Position numbers and translations under genes: made by a program
In this document: positions 4,050 through 41,498 of the stretch, one piece after another
Numbering within the stretch: position 1 is the stretch's first letter
How the letters are laid out: each line of letters begins with the position of its first letter
Notes under the pieces: model-generated
Database searches by the model: none
What the model was told of the DNA's origin: nothing
Seen by the model: the letters and a program-made list of their open reading frames with translations, nothing else
Assembly: GCF_016907235.1 (NCBI RefSeq)
Contig: NZ_JAFBBO010000001.1
Span: forward strand, 4,216,001 to 4,280,000
DNA from: Oerskovia jenensis
GTDB taxonomy: Bacteria; Actinomycetota; Actinomycetes; Actinomycetales; Cellulomonadaceae
Length of the DNA stretch: 64,000 nt
Direction of reading: 5' to 3'

Positions 4050-4120
4050 CCCCCGCTGAGTGCGGAGTAGTTGTCGCCGATCGGCCCGTCCGACGACAAC
4101 TACTCCGCACTCAGCGGGGG
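4050..4120. repeat. Perfect 27-bp-arm palindrome between divergent genes
   Basis: Arms 4050-4076 and 4094-4120 are exact reverse complements over 27 bp, with a 17-base loop at 4077-4093. The outer part of the arm reads GCTGAGTGCG, nearly the same as the outer part (GTTGAGTGCG) of the palindromes at 38457 and 39487. It lies between the divergent starts of ligD (3997) and tetR (4175), so it is not a transcription terminator for either. Probably an interspersed palindromic element of REP type (inference). Confidence 0.8.
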
Positions 4121-6561: not shown

Positions 6562-6577
6562 CCGGCCCCGCAGCACG

Positions 6578-6620
6578 CGACGAAGGGTCGCCCGACACCG
6601 TGTCGGGCGACCCTTCGTCG
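6578..6620. terminator. Bidirectional terminator hairpin, 21-bp perfect stem
   Basis: Arms 6578-6598 and 6600-6620 are exact reverse complements around a single central base. It lies between the stops of the convergent MFS gene (6561) and DUF5692 gene (6633). There is no marked U tract, as is common in actinobacteria. Confidence 0.8.
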
Positions 6621-6632
6621 TGAGCGGAGTCG

Positions 6633-35479: not shown

Positions 35480-35492
35480 TAAACTCGCGGGG
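35480..35492 (+). promoter_or_regulatory. Leaderless -10 box of leuS
   Basis: TAAACT at 35480-35485 ends six bases before the GTG at 35492, placing the transcription start on the start codon. No ribosome site precedes the gene and no clear -35 box is visible. Confidence 0.6.
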
Positions 35493-38449
35493 TGAGCACG
35501 CCTGAGAACCCCGCCCCCGAGAACCCCGCCGAGTCCGTGCACGACGCCCCCGCGTCCTCGCCCGAGACGACCTCCCACCGCTACACGCCCGCCCTCGCGC
35601 AGGACATCGAGCTCCGGTGGCAGGACGCGTGGGAGGAGCGCGGCACGTTCTGGGCGGCCAACCCCTCGGGCCACCTCACCGACGGCGACGGCAAGCACGC
35701 CGACGGGCGCTCGCCCTACTTCATCATGGACATGTTCCCGTACCCCTCGGGCGCGGGCCTGCACGTGGGGCACCCGCTCGGGTACATCGCGACCGACGTC
35801 GTCGGGCGCTTCCGGCGCATGTGCGGCGACAACGTGCTGCACGCCCTCGGCTACGACGCGTTCGGCCTGCCCGCCGAGCAGTTCGCGGTGCAGACCGGTC
35901 AGCACCCGCGCGTCACGACCGAGGCCAACATGGCCAACATGAAGCGCCAGCTCCGCCGCCTGGGCCTGGGCCACGACTCGCGCCGATCGTTCGCGACGAT
36001 CGACCCCGAGTACGTCCGCTGGACCCAGTGGATCTTCCTGCAGATCTTCGAGGCCTGGTACGACGAGGACGCCGTGCGTCCCGACGGCGGCACGGGCCGT
36101 GCGCGCCCCGTCACCGAGCTCGTGGCCGAGTACGCCGCGGGCACGCGGCCCGTCCCCGGCCACCCCGAGGGCACCCGCTGGGCAGACCTCGACCGCGTCG
36201 CGCAGCGCGCCGTGATCGACCCGCAGCGCCTGGCCTACGTGTCCGAGTCTCCCGTGAACTGGGCCCCGGGTCTGGGCACCGTGCTCGCCAACGAGGAGGT
36301 CACGTCCGACGGTCGCTCCGAGCGCGGCAACTTCCCCGTCTTCCAGCGCAGCCTGCGCCAGTGGAACATGCGCATCACCGCGTACGCCGACCGCCTGGCC
36401 GACGACCTCGACCTCATCGACTGGCCCGAGAAGGTCAAGTCCATGCAGCGCAACTGGATCGGCCGCAGCGAGGGTGCGAACGTGCGCTTCGCGATCGACG
36501 GGGCGATCGGCGGGGCCGCGACCCAGGACGTCGAGGTCTTCACCACGCGCCCCGACACCCTGTTCGGCGCGACGTTCATGGTCGTCTCGCCCGAGCACCC
36601 CCTGCTCGACGAGGTCCCCGCCGAGTGGCCCGACGGCACGCGCGACGCGTGGACCGGCGGGCACGCGACCCCCATCGACGCCGTCGCCGCCTACCGCAAG
36701 GAGGCCGCGGCCAAGACCGCGGTCGAGCGCCAGGCCGACGCCGGCAAGAAGACCGGCGTGTTCACGGGCCACCTCGCGGTCAACCCCGTCAACGGCACGC
36801 TCATCCCCGTGTTCACCGCGGACTACGTCCTCATGGGCTACGGCACGGGTGCCATCATGGCCGTCCCCGGCGGCGACGAGCGCGACCACGCGTTCGCCGA
36901 GGCCTTCGAGCTGCCCGTGGTCCGCACGGTCGCGGCCCCCGAGGGCCACGAGGGCGCCTGGACGGGCGACGGCGAGATCGTCAACTCGTCCAACGACGAG
37001 ATCTCGCTCGACGGCCTGAGCGTGCTCGACGCCAAGCGCGCCATGATCGAGTGGCTCGAGGCCAAGGACATCGGCACGGGCACCGTCACCTACCGCCTGC
37101 GCGACTGGCTCTTCAGCCGCCAGCGCTACTGGGGCGAGCCGTTCCCCATCGTCTACGACGAGAACGACCAGCCCATCGCGCTGCCCGACGAGCTGCTGCC
37201 CGTCAACCTGCCCGAGGTCCCCGACTACTCGCCGCGCACCTACGAGCCCGACGACGCCGACTCCTCGCCCGAGCCGCCGCTGGGCCGCAACGAGGACTGG
37301 GTCAACGTCACGCTCGACCTGGGCGACGGTCCCAAGACCTACCGCCGCGACACCAACACCATGCCCAACTGGGCCGGGTCCTGCTGGTACTACCTGCGCT
37401 ACCTCGACCCCGCGGACACCGAGCACATGGCCTCGCCCGAGCTCGAGAAGTACTGGACGGGCCCCGGGCACAACGCCACGGCCGGGCCCGCGGGCGGCGT
37501 CGACCTGTACGTGGGCGGCGTCGAGCACGCCGTGCTGCACCTGCTCTACGCGCGCTTCTGGCACAAGGTGCTCCTGGACCTGGGGCACGTGACCAGCACC
37601 GAGCCGTTCCACAAGCTCTTCAACCAGGGCTACGTGCAGGCCTACGCCTACACCGACGCGCGCGGCGCGTACGTGCCGGCCGAGGAGGTCGTCGAAGAAG
37701 GCAGCGGCGACGAGGTCCGGTACCTGTGGAAGGGCGAGCCCGTCCACCGCGAGTACGGGAAGATGGGCAAGTCGCTCAAGAACGTCGTGACGCCCGACGA
37801 CATGTACGAGGCCTACGGCGCCGACACGTTCCGCGTGTACGAGATGTCCATGGGGCCGCTCGACCTGTCGCGCCCCTGGGACACGCGCGCCGTCGTCGGC
37901 TCGCAGCGGTTCCTGCAGCGGCTGTGGCGCAACGTGGTCAGCGAGGACACGGGCGAGACGACGGTCTCCGACGAGCCCGCCGAGGTCGCGACCCTGCGCC
38001 TGGTCCACCGGACGATCGCGGACGTGCGCGTCGAGATGGAGCACATGCGCTCCAACACGGCGATCGCCAAGCTCATCGCGCTCAACAACCACCTCACGGG
38101 GCTGGACCGTGTGCCGCGCGAGGCGATCGAGCCGCTGATCCTCATGGTGGCGCCCATCGCGCCGCACATCGCGGAAGAGCTGTGGTCCCGCCTCGGCCAC
38201 CCGCAGTCGCTGGCCCACGCGCCCTTCCCGGTCGCGCTCGACGAGTACCTGGTCGAGGACACCGTGACGTGCGTCGTGCAGGTCCAGGGCAAGGTCCGCA
38301 GCCGCCTCGAGGTCCCGCCGTCGATCGGCGAGGACGAGCTGCGTGAGCTGGCACTGGCGGACGCGAACGTGCAGCGCACGCTCGACGGGCGGGGCATCCG
38401 CACGGTCATCGTCCGCGCCCCGAAGCTGGTGAACGTGGTCCCGGCCTGA
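35492..38449 (+). CDS. leuS: Leucyl-tRNA synthetase
   Basis: 985-residue class I synthetase charging tRNA-Leu. The HIGH motif is HVGH (residues 91-94) in [19 protein letters not shown], and the KMSKS loop is KMGKS (757-761). The CP1 editing domain ([20 protein letters not shown] and the following segment) is present, as is the anticodon-binding C-terminus. It has a disordered N-terminal extension of about 30 residues and an additional segment after the HVGH region ([16 protein letters not shown]), both usual in actinobacterial LeuRS. A palindromic element begins 8 bp after the stop. Confidence 0.98.
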
Positions 38450-38456
38450 CATCTCT

Positions 38457-38517
38457 GTTGAGTGCGTGATTCGGCTGCGACTCGCCCGGCGAGTCGCAGC
38501 CGAATCACGCACTCAAC
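38457..38517. repeat. 61-bp palindromic element, copy 1 (perfect 30-bp arms)
   Basis: Arms 38457-38486 and 38488-38517 are exact reverse complements around one base. Outer sequence GTTGAGTGCGTGATTCGGCT. Near-identical to the element at 39487-39547, and the pair frames the DUF559-type gene. It could terminate leuS transcription, but its repetition argues for an interspersed element. Confidence 0.9.
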
Positions 38518-38582
38518 GGCGCGTTGTCCACAGATTCGTCGGCTCACCACTATGGCGCCGCCGATCGGCGCATCGTGGCCGC

Positions 38583-39491
38583 ATGACGAACCCTCAGATG
38601 CCATCGGTCGTGCTCCGCTCGCGGGACGCAGCGAGCTATGGGCTGACACGCCACGACCTGGGCCGGCCCTGGTGGGAGGCGCCGATCCGCGGAGTGCGCG
38701 TGCCGACCGGCAGTGTCGACACTGTCGCCGCCCGGTGCCGCGCCGCTCTGGAGATCTTGCCGCCGTCCGCCGCGTTCAGCCACGTCACAGCGCTCAGGTT
38801 GCTCGGGATCGAGGTGCCTTGGCGGTTGGACCGCGGGTTCGCCGGAGGTCACGAGACGCCAGAACGCCTGCACGTCGTCGTTCCGCGTCGGGACGTGCGG
38901 CCGCAGAGGAAGGACCTCGTCGCCCACGCGTGCAACCAGCCGGCGCTCGAGGTCTTCACGTGGCACGGCCTCCCGGTCACGACACCCGCGCAGACCTGGC
39001 TCCACCTCTCTGACGGGCTCAGCGTGACCGATCTCGTGGTGCTGGGGGACTCCATGACTCGCCGGAAGAACCCTGCGACGACCGTCGAGAAGCTGCGCGA
39101 CCTGCTCGCTGCGACACACAAGATGCGAGGGATAGTCAGTGCGCGTGCGGCGATCGAGCACGTCGTCGCTGGGACCGATTCCTCGATGGAGTCCCGGACG
39201 CGGATGATCCTCGTGGAAGCGGGACTGCCCTGTCCGCAGGTCAACGTGCCTGCGATCGACCCGTCGGGGGCGTTCCTGGCGCTGCCCGACATGTCCTACC
39301 CGGCGCTCCGGATCGCGATCGAGTACGACGGCGACGTCCACCGGACCGATCCGGCCACCTGGCGACGAGACGTCGAGCGTCGGCAGCGCCTCGAAGAGGC
39401 TGGCTGGCTGATCATCACGGTCACCGCGGACGATGTGATCCGACATCCTGAACGGCTGATCCGCCGTGTACAGGCGGCCCTGGCTCGTTGA
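38583..39491 (+). CDS. DUF559/Vsr-like putative endonuclease with AbiEi-like N-terminal region
   Basis: 302-residue protein. The N-terminal half has PPSAAFSHVTALRLLGIEVP, similar to the winged-helix region of AbiEi-type (type IV antitoxin-like) proteins. The C-terminal about 105 residues look like a PD-(D/E)XK nuclease of the DUF559/Vsr group: SSMESRTRMILVEAGL (helix with Glu), ALPDMSYPALRIAIEYDGDV (Asp, then Glu on the next strand) and DVERRQRLEEAGWLIITVTADDV. Proteins of this type are scattered in actinobacteria; their target is unknown. The gene is bracketed by two 61-bp palindromes; its TGA stop is supplied by the right-hand one. A TTGTCCACA site lies 50 bp upstream. Confidence 0.75.
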   Translation: MTNPQMPSVVLRSRDAASYGLTRHDLGRPWWEAPIRGVRVPTGSVDTVAARCRAALEILPPSAAFSHVTALRLLGIEVPWRLDRGFAGGHETPERLHVVVPRRDVRPQRKDLVAHACNQPALEVFTWHGLPVTTPAQTWLHLSDGLSVTDLVVLGDSMTRRKNPATTVEKLRDLLAATHKMRGIVSARAAIEHVVAGTDSSMESRTRMILVEAGLPCPQVNVPAIDPSGAFLALPDMSYPALRIAIEYDGDVHRTDPATWRRDVERRQRLEEAGWLIITVTADDVIRHPERLIRRVQAALAR

Positions 39492-39547
39492 GTGCGTGAT
39501 TCGGCTGCGACACGCCCGGCGAGTCGCAGCCGAATCACGCACTCAGC
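39487..39547. repeat. 61-bp palindromic element, copy 2
   Basis: Arms 39487-39516 and 39518-39547 pair except for one A/A mismatch (39512/39522) and one G-T pair. It differs from copy 1 at only two positions within 61 bp. It carries the stop codon of the nuclease gene (39489-39491) and lies before the convergent HerA-like gene. Confidence 0.9.
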
Positions 39548-39560
39548 GGAGCTGGCCGTC

Positions 39561-41498
39561 TCAGCGGCGGCGGGTGCCGAACACCGTCCGCGTGATCTCC
39601 CGCCCGAGCTGCGTCGCCATCGACCCCAGGAACTTGTCGAGCCCCGACGACGCGCTCGACTTCCGGGGAGTGCTCCGCGTCCCGCTCCCGGCGCGGGCCG
39701 CGTCCCGTTCGAGCTTGGCGCGCATCTTCTCGAGCTCGTCGGCCTGCTTCTTGGCCGCCTTGTCCGCCTCCTTCTGGGCGGCCTCCTGCTCCTTGGCGAC
39801 CTTCTCGGCGGTCGCCGCCTGTTCCGCCGCGGCCCGCTGCGCGGCGATCCGCGCGGTCAGCAGCTCGTAGGCCGACTCGTTGTCGACCGCCACGGTGTAC
39901 CGCGCGGCGAGCGGCGAGCCTGCCACGATCCCGTCGATCACGGCCTCCGGTGCGGGCTCCATCGACGACTGCGGCGCCCGCACCCGGGTCCACGCGACCG
40001 GTGTCGGGGCACCCTTCTCGGTCAGCACCGTGACCACGGCCTCGCCCGTCCCGAGCGACTGCAGCAGCTGCTCCAGGTCGTAGGGGGACCGCGGGAACGT
40101 CCGCACGGCCGCGCGCAGGGCCGCGGCGTCGTCGGGCGTGAAGGCGCGCAGCGCGTGCTGGACGCGGTTGCCGAGCTGGGCCAGGACGTCGGCGGGCACG
40201 TCCTTGGGGCTCTGCGTCACGAAGAACACGCCCACGCCCTTGGAGCGGATGAGCCGCACGGTCTGCACGACCTGCGCCACGAATTCCTTGGTCGCACCCG
40301 TGAACAGCAGGTGCGCCTCGTCGAAGAAGAAGACGAGCCTGGGCTTGTCGAGGTCGCCGACCTCGGGCAGGTCCTGGTACAGGTCGGCGAGCAGCCACAT
40401 GAGGAACGTCGAGAAGAGCGCGGGCCGGTCCTGGACGGCGGGCAGCTCGAGCGCCGAGATCGTGCCGCGGCCATCGGCGGCGACGCGCAGCAGCTCGGTC
40501 GTGTCGAACGCGGGCTCGCCGAAGAACACGTCCGCTCCTTGCGCCTGGAGCGTCACGATCTCGCGCAGGATGACACCGGCCGTGGCCGTGGACAGCCCGC
40601 CGATGCCCGTGAGCTCGGCCTTGCCGTCGTCCGAGGTGAGGTACGCGATGGTCGACTGCAGGTCCTTGAGGTCGAGCAGTGCGAGGCCCTGCGTGTCGGC
40701 CCAGTGGAAGATGAGCCCCAGGCTCGACTCCTGCGTGTCGTTGAGCCCCAGCACCTTGGACAGCAGCAGCGGCCCGAAGTCGCTCACGGTCGTCCGGATC
40801 GGGATGCCCTTGCCGAGCCCGCCGAGCGAGTAGAACTCGACCGGGTAGGTGGTCGGCTCCCAGTCCTGCCCGATGCTCGCGGTGCGCTCGAGGATCTTCT
40901 CGCCGCTCGCGCCGGGCACGGCGAGCCCCGACAGGTCGCCCTTGATGTCGGCGACGAACGTCGGCACCCCGGCGTCGGACAGTCCTTCGGCCATGCCCTG
41001 CAGCGTCTTGGTCTTGCCCGTCCCGGTGGCCCCGGCGACCAGTCCGTGGCGGTTGAGCATCGCGAGCGAGAACCCGACCTGGACGTCGGCGCGCGGCACG
41101 GGGTCGCCGGGAGCCGCGTCGGGGGCTTCGAGCAGCGCACCCAGCGCGAGCGTCGCGTCCTTGGAGGCGTAGCCCGCGGCGACCTCGGCGGGGTAGCCGT
41201 CCAGGGGGCCCGACGGCGGAGCCTGCGCGGGAGGTGCGGCTGCCGGGTCCGGGGTGGCCGGGTCCGGCGTGCCCGACGGCGCGGCGTCGGCGGGTGCGTC
41301 AGGCGCCTCGGTGCCCGGTCCGGCGGGGGAACCCGCACCGGAGGGGGTGCCGGTGCTGCCGGCCGCTGCGGCCTCGGCGGCCTCGAGCGCGGCCTGTGCT
41401 GCGGCGGCCTTGGCCTCGGCCGCCTCGGCGGCTGCCTGTGCGGCGGCTGCCTTCAGGGCGGCGAGCTCTGCGGGGGAGGGGGCTGCGTCGTCGGGCAT
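39561..41498 (-). CDS. HerA-like ATPase, DUF853 family
   Basis: 645-residue P-loop ATPase. Walker A is in HGLVAGATGTGKTKTLQGMA (about residue 158), Walker B in PRLVFFFDEAHLLF (about 390), with VADIKGDLSGLAVPG and FFVTQSPKDVPADVLAQLGN (sensor region) also conserved. The N-terminal 130 residues are Ala/Pro-rich and disordered; residues 540-610 form a charged coiled coil (KEQEAAQKEADKAAKKQ). DUF853 proteins resemble HerA/FtsK-type DNA translocases, but their role is not established. The gene is convergent with the DUF559-type gene; it is not clear whether they act together. Confidence 0.85.
   Translation of the reverse strand: MPDDAAPSPAELAALKAAAAQAAAEAAEAKAAAAQAALEAAEAAAAGSTGTPSGAGSPAGPGTEAPDAPADAAPSGTPDPATPDPAAAPPAQAPPSGPLDGYPAEVAAGYASKDATLALGALLEAPDAAPGDPVPRADVQVGFSLAMLNRHGLVAGATGTGKTKTLQGMAEGLSDAGVPTFVADIKGDLSGLAVPGASGEKILERTASIGQDWEPTTYPVEFYSLGGLGKGIPIRTTVSDFGPLLLSKVLGLNDTQESSLGLIFHWADTQGLALLDLKDLQSTIAYLTSDDGKAELTGIGGLSTATAGVILREIVTLQAQGADVFFGEPAFDTTELLRVAADGRGTISALELPAVQDRPALFSTFLMWLLADLYQDLPEVGDLDKPRLVFFFDEAHLLFTGATKEFVAQVVQTVRLIRSKGVGVFFVTQSPKDVPADVLAQLGNRVQHALRAFTPDDAAALRAAVRTFPRSPYDLEQLLQSLGTGEAVVTVLTEKGAPTPVAWTRVRAPQSSMEPAPEAVIDGIVAGSPLAARYTVAVDNESAYELLTARIAAQRAAAEQAATAEKVAKEQEAAQKEADKAAKKQADELEKMRAKLERDAARAGSGTRSTPRKSSASSGLDKFLGSMATQLGREITRTVFGTRRR

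Follow-up and report, generated by a model that had tools for sequence, protein, structure and literature searches.

The closest described systems are REP and REPIN repeats together with their RAYT genes, the latter being usually single-copy and vertically inherited. In such systems, according to parts of PMC8266576 and PMC3733652, the gene is located between palindromes of its own type, and further palindromes occur in intergenic DNA as solos, doublets and clusters. The same parts of these sources describe several repeat types per genome with repeat-specific genes, and some repeats that are interrupted by bulges. REP palindromes occur in many bacteria, and the sole enzyme linked with them in the literature cited so far is the HUH-type RAYT. 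Two other protein groups are relevant here: AbiEi proteins, which bind inverted repeats of their own promoters (part of PMC7319586), and the MTES_1575 domain, which is listed as a novel Vsr-type REase and is found there in a large HEPN-containing protein (part of PMC3710099).

This work describes a gene-palindrome unit in a window of 64,000 nucleotides from the Oerskovia jenensis genome (contig NZ_JAFBBO010000001.1, positions 4,216,001 to 4,280,000). The left palindrome, of type A (GTTGAGTGCGTGATTCGGCTGCGACTCGCC / GGCGAGTCGCAGCCGAATCACGCACTCAAC; 38457-38517, no strand), has 30-nt arms that are 100% complementary around a 1-nt centre. The right palindrome, also of type A (39487-39547, no strand), carries an A.A mismatch and is 94% complementary with arms taken as 31 nt; the two copies mismatch at 2 positions over 61 nt. 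The sole gene inside the pair (38583-39491, + strand, start set from the family profile match) encodes 302 aa with an AbiEi-like N-terminal/middle part and a Vsr/MTES_1575-type PD-(D/E)XK nuclease, and its TGA stop (39489-39491) is supplied by the right palindrome. On the left, 7 bases separate the stop codon of leuS (35492-38449, + strand) from the palindrome; on the right, a convergent HerA-like ATPase gene follows (39561-41498, - strand). A DnaA-box-like motif, TTGTCCACAG, is located just inside the left palindrome (38524-38533, + strand). The initial annotation had reported two near-identical 61-bp palindromes around exactly one gene, with the right copy carrying the stop and the left copy starting right after leuS, and the coordinates confirm each of these points. 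Its further proposal of a putative PD-(D/E)XK nuclease with an AbiEi-like region and no transposase is borne out by the profile matches that follow.

The AbiEi part matches PADLOC profile PDLC02228 (residues 51-152, 38736-39041, + strand, E 6.9e-8). The nuclease part matches Pfam PF18741, MTES_1575 REase (residues 241-299, 39306-39482, + strand, E 4.4e-10), with 39.9 bits over a curated cut-off of 38.2. We aligned 70 relatives (members of ≥ 240 aa, near-duplicates left out), i.e. the 5 genes of the O. jenensis genome and 65 of the 80 fetched loci. Their C-terminal part matches PF18741 in 67 of 70 members and PF04480 (DUF559) in 61; PADLOC AbiEi profiles match up to 49. Weak matches were obtained to the candidate defence family PDC-S37 (31/70) and to the NCBIfam anti-phage families ProA (9/70) and Hhe (1/70), and no known transposase domain is among the Pfam and NCBIfam families listed for the members, the Pfam families being those of nucleases and AbiEi throughout. 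E202, R206, D235, E246, D248 and G249 are invariant across the alignment, and we take D235, E246 and D248 to be the catalytic acidic residues. Profile comparison with solved structures points first to the chains 3hrl (E 9.9e-5) and 3r3p, 'Mobile intron protein' (E 0.0051), the latter presumably I-Bth0305I; a Vsr-like fold of the nuclease part is predicted from such profile matches. A search of mobile DNA with the window protein gave matches in 7 of 72,556 plasmid and 1 of 50,697 phage records. Plasmid or phage cargo was rejected, as the family is rare in both record sets.

Gene and palindrome type are paired throughout the O. jenensis genome (G000; the other Oerskovia genomes are G001-G006, and L numbers denote loci). 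The window protein detected 5 genes in its own genome (100, 47, 37, 36 and 34% identity), all with a matching palindrome on each side whose sequence is unlike that of the other genes. The 70-relative profile gave 8 matches, namely the same 5 genes plus L269, L238 (= L270) and L271. The more distant members L269 and L238 are also located between matching palindromes, L238 between doublets, so that 7 of 7 nuclease-bearing genes detected are bracketed, each by a different palindrome type. Left-right scores of the 7 genes are 56, 57, 38, 25, 68, 27 and 43, whereas scores between types do not exceed 9; the type E pair scores 14 with fixed windows and 25 with a wider right-hand copy. The remaining match, L271 (2761929-2762348 of the genome), encodes an AbiEi_4 protein of 193 aa that lacks the nuclease part. 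Its homology is to the 5' part of the element genes; it has no matching palindrome pair and is followed by a gene that reads like an AbiEii toxin. No type B gene was found in this genome by profile search. Two further palindrome types occur beside TTGTCCACAG (L236:1615-1671 and L248:1551-1610), at sites where a candidate scan detected no family gene; their sequences are similar to the types of L033 (G003) and L029 (G005), and they may be what is left of former elements.

The same arrangement was found in relatives from named genomes, for which the best 80 of 412 were fetched and 74 have full flanks (L035, the second piece of the gene in L031, was dropped). A matching left-right hairpin pair is present in 42 of 74 at a score ≥ 15 and in 39 at ≥ 20. 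Of 249 control ORFs from these loci one has such a pair, and it is located beside the element in L095. The 32 relatives without a matching pair at threshold comprise 12 with a one-sided long hairpin and 20 with none. On at least one side, a hairpin of ≥ 45 bp was detected in 54 of the 74 family loci, whereas among 97 control ORFs located away from the element 3 had one. Loci with both copies belong to the Cellulomonadaceae, Promicromonosporaceae, Sanguibacteraceae, Jiangellaceae, Microbacteriaceae, Geodermatophilaceae and Propionibacteriaceae, and are spread over the two halves of the protein tree under midpoint rooting, where the root fork is weakly supported. Own pairs average 40.3 versus 8.1 for mismatched pairs (62 pair-bearing loci of 107), and the own pair scores highest in its row in 52 of the 62 loci. 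Protein similarity correlates with palindrome similarity (r 0.713, 0/2000 permutations, n=54, with eight genus loci duplicating named loci left out), and both this correlation and the pair counts partly reflect shared ancestry. Along the protein, the correlation has a weak peak at residues 101-140 (partial r 0.33). The bracketed gene of the window is one case of a widespread pattern in soil actinobacteria.

The palindromes themselves are constrained as hairpins. Folded as single-stranded DNA, the left and right copies reach -40.9 and -35.8 kcal/mol (z-scores -13.7 and -11.0), and for each copy none of 200 shuffles folded equally well. Two blocks hardly vary among 38 distinct type A copies, GAGTGC on the outer side of the arm and GCGAC on the inner side. 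The stretch between them varies yet stays paired (90.7% of cells), and 13 of 29 pairs are changed on both sides; 0 of 500 shuffles were as high on either measure, shuffles that ignore relatedness and a structure that was read from the same sequences. Sliding the partner by 1-3 columns leaves at most 5 pairs changed on both sides. Pairing is kept where the sequence is free, which suggests that the palindrome folds into a hairpin or a cruciform, or that its arms are copied from each other. Types B and C likewise have conserved blocks around variable paired positions. Pair 25-35 of type A, which corresponds to window positions 39511 and 39521 of the right palindrome, departs from standard pairing in 30 of 38 copies (A.A in 16, T.T in 11); this mismatch marks the orientation of type A palindromes, and the orientation differs between orthologous flanking copies (e.g. 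G001 versus G002). Rfam RNA identity was rejected for the palindromes: all 13 matches (9 miRNA models, 3 Ms_IGR-8 and 1 snoRNA) are below the gathering score. Those to the mycobacterial sRNA Ms_IGR-8 (38447-38527 and 39498-39557) reach 22.9-25.0 bits against a gathering score of 44. Another strong hairpin of the window is located at 6573-6625 (26-nt arms, 92% complementary).

Within 300 bp upstream, the motif TTRTCCACA was found for 26 of the 75 family genes and for none of the 234 controls; for its core TCCACAG the numbers are 60 of 75 and 11 of 234. The core was found within 100 bp of 0 of 23 solo palindromes. The DnaA-box-like motif therefore goes with the gene, as it is present at genes and absent at solos.

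The palindromes are dispersed. Type A occupies 11 sites in the O. jenensis genome, 2 at the gene and 9 elsewhere (two rows with E 0.82 dropped). A joint six-type query gave at least 80 matches with the best 40 of 173 candidates scored, which makes the six-type solo counts lower bounds; for type B, at least 12 sites were counted from the rows. Solos outnumber genes, and 14 of 23 lie between convergent ORFs (+ left, - right; crude ORF calling). The nuclease-associated palindromes show the mostly intergenic repeat dispersal by which a REPtron is recognized. In the Cellulomonas denverensis genome that harbors L096, five palindromes of one type are located within ~620 bp (L252, G011:C1:667800-668900), resembling a REP cluster. 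When nine other genomes were searched with nine types (40 candidates scored per genome), each genome had mainly its own type among the matches listed. Type A is about as common without its gene: matches on both strands number 24 (G003), 17 (G005) and 11 (G006) where no type A gene was found, and 19 (G000), 9 (G001), 29 (G002) and 22 (G004) in genomes that have it. Type A match numbers do not depend on the presence of the type A gene.

At fixed sites, elements turn over and types are switched. A comparison of the leuS-to-HerA-like junction among relatives, as the initial annotation had suggested, yielded full, solo-palindrome and replaced sites. The type A element is present in G000, G001, G002 and G004. 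In G003 the outer flanks of the full element enclose a single type A palindrome, and G006 (L031/L106) has an opposite-strand gene between type B palindromes. Neither gene nor palindrome is present in G005, where a different coding region, and no HerA-like gene, is found within 1.5 kb downstream of leuS (L043:3453-4953). Trees place G003 with G002 (support 57 for leuS and 100 for another locus), which suggests loss of the element in G003, as G002 has the full element. The type B gene of G006 lacks ~60 middle residues that include E202, R206 and D235, and looks inactive for that reason; its last ~58 residues are 83% identical to the type A gene, and it is perhaps a recombinant of two element types. 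In L022 the end of the gene and the right palindrome have been lost, and both this element and the type B element of G006 look dead. Two elements syntenic with the window locus, those of L060 (Sanguibacter) and L068 (Cellulosimicrobium), have other palindrome types. The locus is thus not merely a fixed gene with ordinary terminators, given the nine further palindrome copies and the solo and replaced sites among relatives.

Solo sites were compared at 14 sites in four relatives, with 47 comparisons possible and classes assigned by our own reading: 29 same type (only one flank orthologous in 4 of them), 6 other type or full element, 5 remnant and 7 no palindrome. As 5 of the 12 palindrome-free comparisons keep a remnant, we read these as loss by deletion rather than gain. 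Insertion boundaries and target-site duplications of solos are unreadable, because intergenic DNA diverges too fast and because of the 5 remnants. The type B solo palindrome of the window (TGAGTGCGGAGTAGTTGTCG; 4050-4120, no strand) has an empty site in G004. A 1.7-kb insert at this site in G003 (L188) was considered as a family element and rejected, having no family match. At the site of solo L143, G006 has an element that lost its gene end and right palindrome, and G002-G004 have a palindrome resembling that of L269. Within Oerskovia, the genes of group A (in 4 genomes), C (6), D (3), E (3) and F (3) keep their synteny; most genes stay in place here, and it is the palindromes that vary. Flanking copies of type A differ within a locus at 2 (G000), 2 (G002), 1 (G001) and 7 (G004) of 59 positions, and same-side copies between species at 2 to 7, so that concerted evolution of the flanking copies is at most weakly supported.

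The unit as a whole ends at its palindromes. Relocation was assessed in loci with a palindrome pair, from which nine genus duplicates (including L019) were dropped. A gene-covering DNA match links 150 locus pairs, of which 45 share flanks and 105 do not. In 7 of these 105 non-syntenic pairs the shared block reaches both palindromes and stops at most 28 bp from their outer edges: L077/L089, L077/L078, L077/L099, L078/L089 and L083/L089 in Jiangella, and L112/L121 and L121/L122 in the Geodermatophilaceae. L078 has only ~40 bp left of the element, making its left edge a weak test. L077 and L089 are on different contigs of one Jiangella ureilytica genome, with 80% DNA and 82% protein identity. The other 98 pairs are uninformative, being too diverged for the block to reach both outer edges. 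Since the homology blocks of the closest non-syntenic copies end at the palindromes, the unit has changed place and the palindromes are its ends. Full copies at different loci bounded by end repeats, by which insertion sequences are recognized, are thus represented by these 7 pairs; within Oerskovia, no full copies at different loci were seen. The idea of a movable element therefore stands for the relocated units of Jiangella and the Geodermatophilaceae, whereas within Oerskovia the genes are mostly stationary.

The resemblance to REP/RAYT that had been noted from the sequence is supported by pairing, dispersal and type-specific genes: the gene is flanked by its own repeat type (7/7 in the own genome, 42/74 relatives), and scattered solos, doublets and clusters occur. 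The enzyme is different, with an AbiEi-like part and a PD-(D/E)XK/Vsr-type nuclease here and a HUH/Y1 transposase in RAYT. The Y1 transposase profile PF01797 matched 0 of 7 Oerskovia genomes and was positive in 6 of 14 control genomes, and a RAYT acting from elsewhere in the genome was rejected on its absence from all seven. As the defining enzyme is absent, this is not a RAYT system. Compared with REP, the palindromes are ~57-80 bp long with two conserved blocks per arm (type A). The REP-type GTAG/CGTC end tag is absent in type A (the tested type), which ends with GAGTGC blocks; type E arms contain GTAG internally. Unlike in a REPtron, a DnaA-box-like motif precedes the gene. Vsr-fold homing endonucleases such as 3r3p share the nuclease domain by profile match, but here there is no intron or intein, the flanking palindromes are intact and an AbiEi-like part is fused. 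AbiE type IV toxin-antitoxin systems are alike in the AbiEi profile matches and in the inverted-repeat binding of AbiEi cited above; they differ in that the window gene has leuS and a HerA-like gene as neighbors and no toxin gene, that a nuclease is fused at the C-terminus, and that palindromes are on both sides and elsewhere in the genome. The C-terminal domain belongs to MTES_1575/DUF559 (PF18741, PF04480), and the association with palindromes sets it apart from the large HEPN-containing protein in the consulted part of PMC3710099. Open-licence papers yielded no literature link of DUF559, MTES_1575 or AbiEi-nuclease proteins to palindromes, and no description of such an element. As the initial annotation had anticipated, the nuclease-palindrome element looks undescribed.

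In our view, gene and palindromes probably belong together as a cognate nuclease-palindrome element, which looks like an independent counterpart of the REPtron that works in a similar way with an unrelated enzyme. The AbiEi-like part would read the two conserved blocks in each arm, and the Vsr-like nuclease would cut or nick the palindrome in its hairpin form, which would arise in single-stranded DNA at the replication fork or as a cruciform. Host repair would then copy the palindrome, and rarely the whole unit, to a new or occupied site. The left palindrome and the DnaA box by the promoter would provide autoregulation and replication coupling. Recognition of the hairpin ends by the enzyme, and movement through it, as the initial annotation had suggested, are our inference. 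More tentatively, we propose as a good possibility an HUH-free route to REP-like palindromes: an AbiEi-type reader fused to a Vsr/homing-type nuclease under a DnaA box, tied to replication, would cut its own hairpin and drive spread, exchange and occasional unit transfer, with several co-evolving pairs per genome and orphan palindromes after gene loss.

A homing-type selfish gene, which we regard as unlikely, would consist of the gene plus one palindrome; the nuclease would cut solos, the unit would be copied in, and solos would be empty or vacated sites. The single palindrome with the element's outer flanks in G003, the other gene and palindrome type at the leuS place in G006, a type B solo site of G000 that is occupied by a gene of another type in G006, the other palindrome types of the syntenic L060 and L068 elements and the resemblance of the nuclease domain to a mobile-intron protein are all in its favor. 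A classical homing gene, however, splits its target, and with both flanking palindromes intact this element would, if they are its target, keep cutting itself; in addition, solos outnumber genes, and G003 looks like loss rather than an empty target by its grouping with G002.

Still less probable is a host function without mobility, in which the palindromes act as bidirectional transcription terminators or as 3' ends of mRNAs and the protein has been domesticated for regulation or processing. The 14 of 23 solos between convergent genes (on a crude ORF reading) agree with this, as does the promoter-repeat binding of AbiEi proteins, but a pattern scan of 38300-39700 found no T-tract terminator. 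Nor does this reading account for palindrome types that are specific to a gene and present on either side of it, for a change of type at a single site, for the five copies of L252 or for the homology blocks that end at palindromes. Ordinary terminators are rejected as a full account because the pairs are gene-specific and controls do not have them. We give least credence, as very unlikely, to a single-gene anti-phage or toxin-antitoxin-like defence in which the AbiEi antitoxin part restrains the nuclease and the palindromes serve as operators or self markers. The AbiEi profile matches and the weak PDC-S37, ProA and Hhe matches speak for it; the scarcity of the family in plasmid and phage records, the downstream copy and many distant copies, which are unexpected of an operator, and the absence of such palindromes at the AbiEi gene without nuclease speak against it.

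In the reading that we prefer, a cognate nuclease-palindrome element, a nuclease unrelated to RAYT is associated with its own palindromes across Actinobacteria just as RAYT is with REP, and several such pairs occur per genome. Comparison with RAYT systems could separate general traits (hairpins, gene 3' ends, co-evolution) from enzyme-specific ones. DUF559/MTES_1575 proteins, at present of unknown function or included in defence lists, also gain a role that can be tested, and the family is a possible source of sequence-specific hairpin nucleases.

The extended motif TTRTCCACAG occurs 17 times in the O. jenensis genome, including at element A, element D and the L238 element. Two of the occurrences are upstream of dnaN, at the presumed oriC, where the 10-mer TTGTCCACAG of the window is found as well. 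Motifs of the TTRTCCACA type are presumed DnaA boxes, which agrees with their place near dnaN. Two more of the 17 are DnaA-box-like TTATCCACAG sites, located 44 bp apart at L240:1501-1554 (2506014-2506067 of the genome), beside genes that we take to be a short crgA-like and a rhomboid-like gene.
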